DNA from: Ectobacillus antri
GTDB lineage: Bacteria > Bacillota > Bacilli > Bacillales > Bacillaceae_G
Direction: 5' to 3'
DNA length: 64,000 bases
Assembly (NCBI RefSeq): GCF_003852715.1
Contig: NZ_RIAV01000006.1
Coordinates: forward strand, 124,001 to 188,000
Program-made: the position numbers and the translations under genes
The notes under the pieces: generated by a model
Databases searched by the model: none
Seen by the model: only the letters and a program-made list of their open reading frames with translations
What the model was told of the DNA's origin: nothing
Shown here: piece by piece, positions 32,521-50,461 of the stretch
Numbering within the stretch: the stretch's first letter is position 1
How the letters are laid out: each line of letters begins with the position of its first letter

Positions 32521-32786
32521 TCTCCGCAAAAATACAAAAAACCCCTCATCCCTAAAAGGGACGAGAGGTTATAAATTCCCGCGGTACCACCCTAGTTAGT
32601 GCCCGTAGACACTCGCTCAAATCCGTAACGTGGATGAAACGGCAACCGCTACTGTTGTTCACGATTGCAACTCTAAGGCGAGTTCACAACGATATCCGGA
32701 TTGACTTTCACCACACGTCAACTCTCTGAGCCGGTTCTATTTGCTACTACTCCTTGTCACTGTTATTGCTTATTTGCTTACAGTCT
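32521..32786 (-). promoter_or_regulatory. T-box leader of leuS
   Basis: Minus-strand leader with the T-box sequence AGGGTGGTACCGCG (32580-32593), an upstream stem I region (about 32640-32780) whose specifier position appears to be CUC (Leu) within GUGAACUCGCC, and a terminator stem at 32540-32570 followed by a T run. Uncharged tRNA-Leu should stabilise the antiterminator and allow leuS transcription. Confidence 0.93.
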
Positions 32787-46882: not shown

Positions 46883-47042
46883 TAAAAAACCTTCCCTTTT
46901 GAGGAAAGGTTGAATTTGCTCTTAATTGCCTTTCACTCTTATCGTTCAAGGCTTGAGCGCCTTGCACAGGTTGAGCACCTTTCACGTATGTGAGGTTGCT
47001 GGGCTTCATAGGGCCTGTCCCTCCGCCAGCTCGGGATAAGAG
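46883..47042 (-). promoter_or_regulatory. S-box (SAM-I) riboswitch of metK
   Basis: The minus-strand leader begins CTCTTATCCCGAGCTGGCGG and continues with the conserved AGGGACAGGCCC and GAAGCCCAGCAACC, which form the SAM-I core. It ends in a terminator AACCTTTCC / GGGAAGGTT (46888-46911) and T run. High SAM should stop metK transcription. Confidence 0.96.
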
Positions 47043-47337: not shown

Positions 47338-48924
47338 ATGAGTACTGTGAATGTCCAAATCGAATTAGATGAGCTATTGAACGGAAGCAATGCACACGTG
47401 CAATTAAGCGTTCCACAGCTAGTTGAGAGAGTGCTGATGCGCGGCGAAGGCACGCTAACCTCAACAGGAGCAGTTTCTGTTTCAACAGGTAAATATACAG
47501 GACGTTCCCCTAAAGATAAATTTATTGTAAAAGAAGCATCGGTTGCAGATAAGATTGATTGGGGTTCTGTCAATCGCCCGATTTCTGAAGAACATTTTAA
47601 TCATTTATATACAAAAGTGTTAGAGCACCTAAAAGAAAAAGAAGAACTTTTTGTATTCAAGGGGTTTGCAGGAGCTGATCATAGCTATCGCCTACCGCTT
47701 CAAGTTGTTAACGAATATGCATGGCACAATCTATTTGCGCACCAGTTGTTCATTCGTCCAACTCAAGCCGATCTTGCTAATCATGAGGCACAGTTTACGA
47801 TTGTATCGGCTCCAACATTTAAAGCAGATCCAGCGATAGATGGCACAAACTCCGAAACATTTATTATTATTTCTTTTGAAAAACGCATTGTCCTTATTGG
47901 TGGTACAGAGTATGCCGGGGAAATGAAGAAATCAATTTTCTCTATTATGAACTTCTTGTTGCCAGAACAAGATATTTTATCTATGCATTGCTCTGCAAAT
48001 GTGGGAGAAGAGGGCGATGTAGCTTTATTCTTCGGTTTGTCCGGTACAGGCAAAACAACATTGTCCGCAGACCCAACTCGTAAATTAATTGGCGATGACG
48101 AGCACGGCTGGTCTGAAAATGGTGTATTTAATATTGAAGGTGGTTGCTACGCAAAATGTGTAAGCCTTTCTCGTGAGAAAGAACCACAAATTTTTGACGC
48201 AATTACATTTGGTGCTGTTTTAGAAAATGTTGTAGTAAACGAAAATACGAGAATTGCAGACTATAACGATGTCTCTTTAACGGAGAATACAAGGGCCGCT
48301 TATCCTATAGAAGCAATTGACAACATTATTCTTCCAAGTGTTGCTGGTCATCCTAATACAATTATCTTTTTAACGGCTGATGCATTTGGTGTATTACCTC
48401 CTATCAGCAAGCTATCAAAAGAGCAAGCAATGTACCATTTCCTAAGCGGCTATACAAGTAAACTGGCTGGTACAGAGCGCGGTATTACATCACCGCAAGC
48501 AACATTCTCTACATGCTTCGGATCGCCGTTTCTGCCTCTACACGCATCTCGCTATGCAGAAATGCTCGGTGAAAAAATTGATAAGTACAATGCACAAGTA
48601 TTCCTTGTCAACACCGGTTGGACGGGTGGTGAATATGGCGTTGGAAAACGTATGAATCTCGCCTATACACGTGCAATGGTGCAAGCTGCCTTGAACGGCG
48701 AGCTAAAGCTTACAGAAACAGTGAAAGATGATATTTTCGGCTTGGAAATTCCTCTTCATGTGCCTGGTGTCCCTGACGAAGTGCTAACACCGATAAAAAC
48801 ATGGGCAGATCAAGATGCTTATAAAGAAAAAGCATTAGAGCTAGCAAATCAATTTAAAGAAAACTTTAAGAAATTTGACGGTATCGCAGACAGTATTATT
48901 AAATACGGCGGTCCGACTGTTTAA
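47338..48924 (+). CDS. pckA: Phosphoenolpyruvate carboxykinase (ATP)
   Basis: Gluconeogenic enzyme converting oxaloacetate and ATP to PEP; 528 residues. Motifs: [15 protein letters not shown], the kinase-1a loop [14 protein letters not shown], kinase-2 LIGDDEHGW, and the C-terminal adenine-binding [15 protein letters not shown]. The start at 47338 (MSTVNVQIE) follows AAAGGATGG; an ATG six bases earlier is too close to it. Divergent from metK, as in B. subtilis. The pckA promoter should lie in 47100-47330; CcpN and CcpA sites were not resolved. Confidence 0.97.
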
Positions 48925-48933
48925 AAAAGCACC

Positions 48934-48967
48934 AAAAAACCTTGTACCGACTGGTACAAGGTTTTTT
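48934..48967 (+). terminator. pckA terminator
   Basis: Fifteen-base perfect arms AAAAAACCTTGTACC / GGTACAAGGTTTTTT (48934-48948, 48953-48967) with a four-base loop. Confidence 0.92.
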
Positions 48968-49037
48968 AGGGATTAAAAAGGCAGTCATATCCACCGCCAA
49001 TCTTATCGGATATTCAGTTTTATTTGCGCTTTCATTT

Positions 49038-49175
49038 CTATATAGAGGGGTTACGTAAAAACTTTCGGACTTCTTCTGCAGAAATTCCCATATCAATCGC
49101 CTCTATTATCAAATCCAGCCATTCCTGATCTAAATTGTTTTCTTGTTGTACCGCAGTTGGTTGTGCTTGCTTCAT
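49038..49175 (-). CDS. SinI-like anti-repressor
   Basis: A 45-residue protein with a short variable start (MKQAQPTAVQQENN) and the SinI domain LDQEWLDLIIEAIDMGISAE then EVRKFLRNPSI. The pattern EWxxLIxEAxxxGxSxEEVRxFL is the helix-turn-helix hook with which SinI displaces SinR from DNA in B. subtilis. There is no SinR-type DNA-binding domain and no sinR next to it, so it is a stand-alone antagonist of SinR or a SinR/SlrR paralogue. The ATG at 49175 follows CGGAGGT. It is preceded by a c-di-GMP riboswitch. Confidence 0.85.
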   Translation of the reverse strand: MKQAQPTAVQQENNLDQEWLDLIIEAIDMGISAEEVRKFLRNPSI

Positions 49176-49189
49176 AGTTAGCTACCTCC

Positions 49190-49280
49190 GTTAGCGGCAG
49201 CCCAGCCATCATAGTATTTCTACCTTAGACCCGTGACTTTGCGTCCTTGCTTTTCAACAAGTTTGCCTTTCACAATTTCC
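49190..49280 (-). promoter_or_regulatory. c-di-GMP-I (GEMM) riboswitch upstream of the sinI-like gene
   Basis: The minus strand reads AAAGGCAAAC, a GAAA-capped hairpin (CTTG/CAAG), GGACGCAAAGTCACGGGTCT, AAGG, a short variable stem and GATGGCTGGGCTGCC. These are the conserved GEMM-I blocks in order and spacing, with GGCA/TGCC closing the aptamer. The GGAGGT ribosome site of the sinI-like gene starts six to seven bases after the closing stem, and no T-run terminator lies between, so translational control is likelier than termination. Confidence 0.9.
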
Positions 49281-49468
49281 GATTTTTTATTTGATAAAAT
49301 AATCCCATGAATAGATTACCATATTTCTAGTCCCTTAGATATATACATAAAAATAAATATTCCGACATTTTTCTACAATTTAGCGCATTCGACTTCTTTA
49401 ATCTAGGCATTCACACTATATAGGATTATCACATATAGTATACCAAATCATTTTTGGAGGTGGGAGCT

Positions 49469-50461
49469 TTGCGTAAAAGTCTTATTTTACTAACTATTTT
49501 CTTAATTGCATTTTTCTCTTTTGCAGGTTGTACACAAAAAGAAAAATTGGAGAAAGTGCGCGTTGGTGAAGTAACACATTCTTTATTCTATGCCCCTCTA
49601 TATGTGGCCATTGGAAAAGGCTATTTTAAAGAAGCTGGTTTAGATGTTGATTTACAAACGACTGCCGGCGGTGACAAAACGATGACCGCTCTATTGTCAA
49701 ACGGGATTGATATTGCACTGGTTGGCTCTGAGACAACAATTTACGTACACAGTCAAGGTGCTAAAGACCCTGTTATCAACTTTGCACAGCTTACGCAAAC
49801 AGACGGTACATTCTTAGTCTCTCGTAAAAAGGTTGATTCTTTCAGTTGGCGCGACCTTGAGGGTACTACGTTTTTAGGGCAGCGTAAAGGCGGTATGCCG
49901 CAGATGGCAGGCGAGTTTGTATTAAAAAAGCACGGGATTGATCCGCAGAAGGATTTAAATTTAATTCAGAGCATTGAGTTTGCCAATATCGCTAACGCCT
50001 TCGCATCCGGAACAGGCGATTATGTACAACTATTCGAGCCAACTGCCAGCATCTTTGAGAAAGAAGGAAGAGGGCACATTGTTGCTTCCTTCGGTGCCGA
50101 ACTAGGTAAAGTACCATACACAACATTTATGGCAAAAGAAAGCTTCTTAAAGAAAGACGCAAAAACGGCAGAGGCTTTTACAAAAGCGATTTATAAAGCG
50201 CAGCAATGGGTTGACACACACAGTCCCGCAGAGATTGCCAAGGTCACTGCCCCGTTTTTTAAGGATACGCCATCCGATATTATGGTAAAAGTCATCGAGC
50301 GCTATAAAAATCAAAACTCCTATGCGACAAACCCGATTTTAGATGAAGAAGAGTGGAATAACTTGCAAAGCATTATGAAGGAAGCTGGGGAGTTGCCAAA
50401 GCAAGTGCCACATGCTGAGCTCGTTAACACCAAAATTGCTGAAAAAGCCATTGGACAGTAA
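49469..50461 (+). CDS. ytlA: YtlA, ABC transporter substrate-binding lipoprotein
   Basis: Solute-binding component of a SsuABC/NitT-type importer; 330 residues with a lipoprotein signal (basic MRKS, hydrophobic core, lipobox SFAGC at about residue 19-23). The mature NMT1-like domain contains APLYVAIGKGYFKEAGLDVDL. The start is probably TTG at 49469 after GGAGGTGGGAG. The solute may be a sulfonate, nitrate-like anion or thiamine precursor; the sequence does not decide. First gene of ytlA-ytlC-ytlD. Confidence 0.9.
   Translation: MRKSLILLTIFLIAFFSFAGCTQKEKLEKVRVGEVTHSLFYAPLYVAIGKGYFKEAGLDVDLQTTAGGDKTMTALLSNGIDIALVGSETTIYVHSQGAKDPVINFAQLTQTDGTFLVSRKKVDSFSWRDLEGTTFLGQRKGGMPQMAGEFVLKKHGIDPQKDLNLIQSIEFANIANAFASGTGDYVQLFEPTASIFEKEGRGHIVASFGAELGKVPYTTFMAKESFLKKDAKTAEAFTKAIYKAQQWVDTHSPAEIAKVTAPFFKDTPSDIMVKVIERYKNQNSYATNPILDEEEWNNLQSIMKEAGELPKQVPHAELVNTKIAEKAIGQ

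Follow-up and report, generated by a model that had tools for sequence, protein, structure and literature searches.

A c-di-GMP-I riboswitch in front of a stand-alone sinI gene in Ectobacillus antri, and the distribution of this pair among related bacteria

The aptamer and the SinI gene

We analysed a stretch of 64,000 nucleotides from Ectobacillus antri (the window), the minus strand of which carries a c-di-GMP-I (GEMM-I) riboswitch aptamer at 49193-49277, followed by a small gene for a SinI-domain anti-repressor at 49038-49175. The aptamer matches the Rfam covariance model RF01051 with 79.4 bits (cmscan, cut-off 35, E = 5.9e-14, model positions 1-87 of 87), which places it among the class-I c-di-GMP aptamers, and all five sequence blocks that the earlier note had named were found on this strand, in the order and at the coordinates claimed there. 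In the Vc2 class-I aptamer the bases that contact the ligand are G20, A47 and C92, of which G20 discriminates c-di-GMP from 3',3'-cGAMP. Mapped on the alignments, the corresponding three bases of the window aptamer are G, A and C. The aptamer core and the Shine-Dalgarno region are identical in the window and in genome G003. In a consensus scan of positions 48900-49560, no sigma-70-like promoter was recognised ahead of the aptamer on the same strand; two sigma-70-like sites were found elsewhere in this region, where shuffled sequences gave a mean of 2.2.

The end of the aptamer and the start of the SinI open reading frame (ORF) are separated by 17 nt, and the Shine-Dalgarno sequence of the gene (GGAGG, 49185-49189, minus strand) lies nine bases before its ATG start codon. 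The encoded 45-residue protein is a member of the SinI family PF08671, as the earlier note had proposed, with a profile score of 48.4 bits (cut-off 31.4), and it also matches the SinI chains 5tmx_A (E = 1.6e-6) and 1b0n_B (E = 2.1e-6) of the PDB. This is the single Pfam match in the protein, and the DNA-binding domain of SinR is absent. Against the much narrower NCBIfam equivalog NF046031, which describes SinI of the B. subtilis type, the protein scores 37.5, below the cut-off of 80.

The description of the gene as one with no sinR beside it also stands, since its neighbours are a gene for a substrate-binding protein before it and pckA, on the opposite strand, after it, and neither is SinR-like. 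The gene is not part of a sinI-sinR operon, being followed by a terminator-like stem-loop of 17 pairs with a T-tract (48932-48969, minus strand) and then by the opposite-strand pckA. The consensus scan found two terminator-like sites in the region, against 0.3 in shuffles. The window contains other RNA elements of ordinary kinds, a SAM riboswitch upstream of metK (46936-47042, minus strand) and a T-box leader (32554-32769, minus strand).

Distribution of the riboswitch-SinI pair

The earlier note knew of no described case of a c-di-GMP riboswitch with sinI. One is in print: a 2015 RNA-seq study (PMC4342826) lists, in the part of the paper available, a putative riboswitch "(c-di-GMP)-sinI" at BMMGA3_08510 of Bacillus methanolicus MGA3. 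That leader resembles the one in the window: its mapped 5'-UTR, ahead of sinI, contains a putative c-di-GMP riboswitch, assigned from RNA-seq start sites and Rfam comparison; unlike the present analysis, the record as available consists of an entry in Table 4 and one sentence, with no test, mechanism, distribution or position of sinR. We found no further record of the pair or of its generality in a search that covered mostly non-subscription literature, and the pair may have been mentioned earlier, for example in the original GEMM surveys. In the excerpts available, no riboswitch on a Bacillus sinI is described in PMC7793685, PMC8876208, PMC10240345, PMC6143707, PMC8470499, PMC2885750 or PMC4879592, and the sin genes are not mentioned in the related PMC5816809 and PMC12452182. 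The pairing is real but not unique, with one earlier prediction in print, and it is much wider than the texts found state.

Within the family of the source genome, a riboswitch lies directly upstream of a sinI in 16 of 19 genomes. Three of the four genomes of its own genus carry the pair with a stand-alone sinI, which in both relatives has the same neighbours, namely metK, pckA and genes for a transporter and a NUDIX protein; the fourth contains seven riboswitches and gave no match to SinI. All 13 genomes of genus g2 have the riboswitch before the sinI of a sinI-sinR operon, a count that includes G007, in which the aptamer is matched in part and sinI was identified by eye. The remaining two genera of the family, with one genome each, have ORFs of sinI-sinR size and a riboswitch match in neither genome. 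One of the own-genus relatives carries, near a contig end, another riboswitch-SinI pair with a weaker score (43.6 bits; L014, G002:C63:205-442, minus strand).

At the level of the order, we drew an even sample of 41 genomes from 41 genera, which contains 46 short (<100 aa) and 34 longer, SinR-sized PF08671 ORFs. At least 22 of the 46 short ORFs, in 19 genomes, are preceded on their own strand by an RF01051 match that lies 42-75 nt before the SinI domain; this is a lower bound, as it was counted on 150 of the 172 RF01051 matches of the draw. Among the matches listed, none lies upstream of the 34 SinR-sized ORFs (Fisher p = 3.5e-7 against the short ORFs), and none belongs to the other 24 short SinI ORFs, the operon SinI of the source genome included. 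Short SinI ORFs are present in 26 of the 41 genomes, and each of the 19 genomes with a riboswitch-SinI pair also has a SinR-sized ORF.

An independent, strict sequence pattern, made of the aptamer core, the Shine-Dalgarno sequence and the D-x-E-W of SinI, matched in 68 of 397 genomes, which represent 31 of the 135 genera; these are again lower bounds, as the pattern misses aptamers with long insertions and left the scanned genomes of genus g2 unmatched although the pair is present there. The control pattern with a scrambled core matched in none of the 397 genomes. The linkage between riboswitch and SinI is far above chance.

Applied to named genomes, the strict pattern gave at least 119 stretches, with 80 loci among the matches listed, a set that is not a census. 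Rfam assigns a class-I aptamer to 74 of these 80 loci (RF01051 in 51, RF03167 in 23), and the same 74 have a SinI ORF (73 found by script, that of L122 by eye). The 73 script-found ORFs and the window protein all belong to PF08671 with E values of 0.01 or better. The other six loci have neither aptamer nor SinI, and the pattern matches them by chance; one is from Streptomyces, one from an uncultured bacterium, and four are records of other phyla that are metagenome-assembled or uncultured. The 74 loci come from 25 named genera, nearly all of Bacillaceae; outside this family they include Paenibacillus and Gorillibacterium (Paenibacillaceae) and Alicyclobacillus (Alicyclobacillaceae). Among the matches listed, the ligand-selecting base of the SinI-linked aptamers is G except in two, at L109:4605-4687 (Alicyclobacillus acidiphilus) and L122:7525-7609 (Oceanobacillus halophilus), where A takes its place.

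The position of sinR varies among the 73 listed loci: 20 have it downstream on the same strand, 10 in convergent orientation and two in another arrangement, and 41 lack it in the available flank. For 29 of these 41, at least 1.5 kb of sequence is available downstream. The neighbours of these 29 stand-alone units do not share a function, no family being found in more than four of the 51 neighbour ORFs scanned (of 56; two apparent duplicates of those at L129 and three short ORFs were left out). Because SinI keeps its riboswitch in changing neighbourhoods, the two look like a portable unit. That the linkage is maintained in many genera and in several kinds of genomic setting argues for control of SinI by the riboswitch.

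Single genomes can contain two units, as in G035 (C16, about 0.7 kb apart), G037 (C12) and G056 (C12 and C17), and it is possible that such doubled units are sensors of different threshold. In the 5.7-Mb genome G180, PF08671 matches 12 times and the strict pattern three times, the latter with identical sequence, as if the unit had been copied. At two loci an epsC/EAR RNA element (L092:3524-3635 and L121:116-226) lies less than 8 kb from the riboswitch-SinI unit, which fits an exopolysaccharide cluster nearby.

Leader folding and the predicted sign of the switch

The distance from the aptamer core to the start codon is 71-94 nt in the 73 listed named leaders, and a run of six T occurs in one of them. 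This short distance and the scarcity of T runs leave no room for a terminator, and therefore point to regulation at the level of translation. In the window, the minimum-energy fold of the ligand-free leader contains a predicted helix between GCTGCC at the 3' end of the aptamer (49196-49201, minus strand), the putative anti-Shine-Dalgarno arm, and GGTAGC (49181-49186, minus strand), which includes the final two bases of the Shine-Dalgarno sequence. The two strings can form six pairs, one of them G-U. In many relatives the matched strings follow the same pairing logic with other letters, for example as CCTGAAATAC...GTATTTTAGGAGG or as TCCTCC in the 3' strand of the aptamer facing GGAGGA.

The accessibility of the Shine-Dalgarno sequence was computed for 44 leaders, comprising 41 of the 74 listed named leaders, that of the window and those of two own-genus relatives, with the leaders of genus g2 left out. 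Its mean is 0.37 for the free ensemble and reaches 0.66 with the aptamer imposed as a constraint; the change exceeds 0.1 upwards in 36 of the 44 leaders, is downwards in three and is hardly any in five. Since the mere enforcement of a structure raises accessibility, shuffled spacers were used as control, and these gave a gain of 0.126 (sd 0.029) against the observed 0.292, with none of 40 replicates as high. Taken alone, the window leader shows a gain that is not significant (9 of 40 shuffled-spacer replicates as high), and the same is true of the two own-genus relatives (13 of 40 and 14 of 40). In the folding model, the formation of the window aptamer without ligand costs 11.3 kcal/mol. The modelled leader set thus supports a translational ON switch, for which the window leader is individually no proof.

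We consider two further possibilities for the leader itself. The first is an OFF switch, in which the ligand would lower SinI and c-di-GMP would keep SinR active. Class-I riboswitches of either sign are known, according to the part of PMC6366702 that was available, and three of the 44 leaders do fold in the OFF direction, but the 36 that fold in the ON direction go beyond the shuffled controls, and the OFF sign would be contrary to the sense in which c-di-GMP usually acts in biofilms, so that we regard it as quite unlikely. The second is a riboswitch that binds its ligand with little regulatory effect, or a degenerate leftover of one. A precedent is Bc1 of B. thuringiensis, a conserved class-I riboswitch that is described, in the accessible portion of PMC11218506, as binding c-di-GMP while expression is unchanged, and the weak result of the window leader in the fold test would agree with it. 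The identity of aptamer core and Shine-Dalgarno region between the window and G003, together with the maintenance of the linkage across genera, speaks against such a loss of function, which appears very improbable.

The reading that we favour, and hold to be likely, is the translational ON switch, by which high c-di-GMP would lead to SinI, to antagonism of SinR and to expression of matrix genes. The leader of a single-gene mRNA would then be a class-I c-di-GMP riboswitch that sets the translation of the small SinI anti-repressor. At low c-di-GMP, the 3' end of the aptamer would pair over the Shine-Dalgarno sequence and SinI would not be made, while at high c-di-GMP the ligand would keep the 3' strand inside the aptamer, leaving the ribosome site open for synthesis of SinI, which would in turn remove SinR from its targets and allow the matrix genes to be expressed. 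Sequestration of the Shine-Dalgarno sequence and the ON polarity are predictions of the folding model; the identity of the ligand, the antagonism of SinR and the effect on matrix genes we infer from the families to which the components belong.

SinR, known systems and other c-di-GMP riboswitches

The source genome has a SinR of 108 aa on contig C1 (E = 2.4e-40 to 1b0n_A), with a second SinI at about 0.4 kb that has no riboswitch in front of it among the matches listed. These two SinI and one SinR account for the three PF08671 places of the genome. The SinR gene adjoins a PF12389 gene (E = 9e-81), a family that comprises the camelysin/TasA-type matrix proteins.

In B. subtilis, SinI and SlrA are paralogues with different targets. 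The window riboswitch could likewise be a working one while its stand-alone SinI targets mainly another SinR-like protein, such as a paralogue of the SlrR type or another SinI-domain regulator, with an output other than matrix genes. The presence of a SinI beside SinR in the same genome fits this possibility, as does the score of the window protein below the equivalog cut-off. On the other hand, no second partner of the family is evident at the three PF08671 places, although a distant one could be missed, and in other genomes the riboswitch-SinI unit is directly upstream of sinR (20 of the 73 listed loci) or convergent with it (10 of 73). We consider a different target unlikely and retain SinR as the probable partner of the riboswitch-linked SinI, through which c-di-GMP probably acts directly on the biofilm decision.

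B. subtilis resembles the source genome in having a SinI-domain peptide and a SinR partner, to which the matches with chains A and B of 1b0n refer. It differs from the window in that its sinI is activated by Spo0A (PMC8876208 and PMC8470499, in the parts available). RF01051 has no match in the B. subtilis control genome, and excerpts of PMC4879592 state that c-di-GMP is not involved in biofilm control in this species. The class-I riboswitch Bc2, upstream of cap/cbpA in B. thuringiensis, shares the ON sign and the sessile function with our proposal (PMC7423583 and PMC6366702, again in part); there, transcription read-through controls a structural adhesin, whereas a compact translational leader on a regulator is proposed here. 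In B. thuringiensis 407, sinI is up on overexpression of a diguanylate cyclase, as mentioned from unpublished array data in the available text of PMC7793685, which concerns the level of sinI only.

The route by which c-di-GMP would reach biofilm genes in relatives of Bacillus has been puzzling because the model species is reported to be without such control (PMC4879592, in the excerpts available). With a riboswitch on the anti-repressor gene, the second messenger would reach the sessile programme in a single step in many genera, and this arrangement yields the prediction that B. subtilis lacks a c-di-GMP input to sinI because it lacks the riboswitch. The component parts are already known; the breadth of the riboswitch-SinI link and its absence in the model species raise a question that is open to simple leader-fusion reporters in any carrier genus. 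More tentatively, and with somewhat less than an even chance in our estimate, c-di-GMP may be a direct and putatively old input to SinI/SinR in most SinI-bearing lineages of the order, carried by a portable and sometimes duplicated unit of aptamer and SinI, with B. subtilis as a derived exception. If this is true, duplicated units would place several c-di-GMP sensors on one repressor.

The source genome has three RF01051 matches, in the window sinI leader, in a GGDEF leader and at a pel-type locus, and from these we infer a circuit in which c-di-GMP, sensed by riboswitches, would control its own synthesis, a Pel-type polysaccharide cluster and SinI, and through SinI the targets of SinR. The match in the GGDEF leader (L001, C3:42211-42295, minus strand, 81 bits) is upstream of a 271-aa GGDEF gene, so that c-di-GMP may regulate its own synthesis there; the genome has 15 GGDEF matches. 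The third match (L003, C8:31893-31984, minus strand, 43 bits) lies between a gene for a PelG-family exporter (PF16933, E = 4.4e-98) and one for a GH114 hydrolase (E = 6e-16), a locus that, judged from its genes, appears to be a Gram-positive pel-type cluster with an internal riboswitch.
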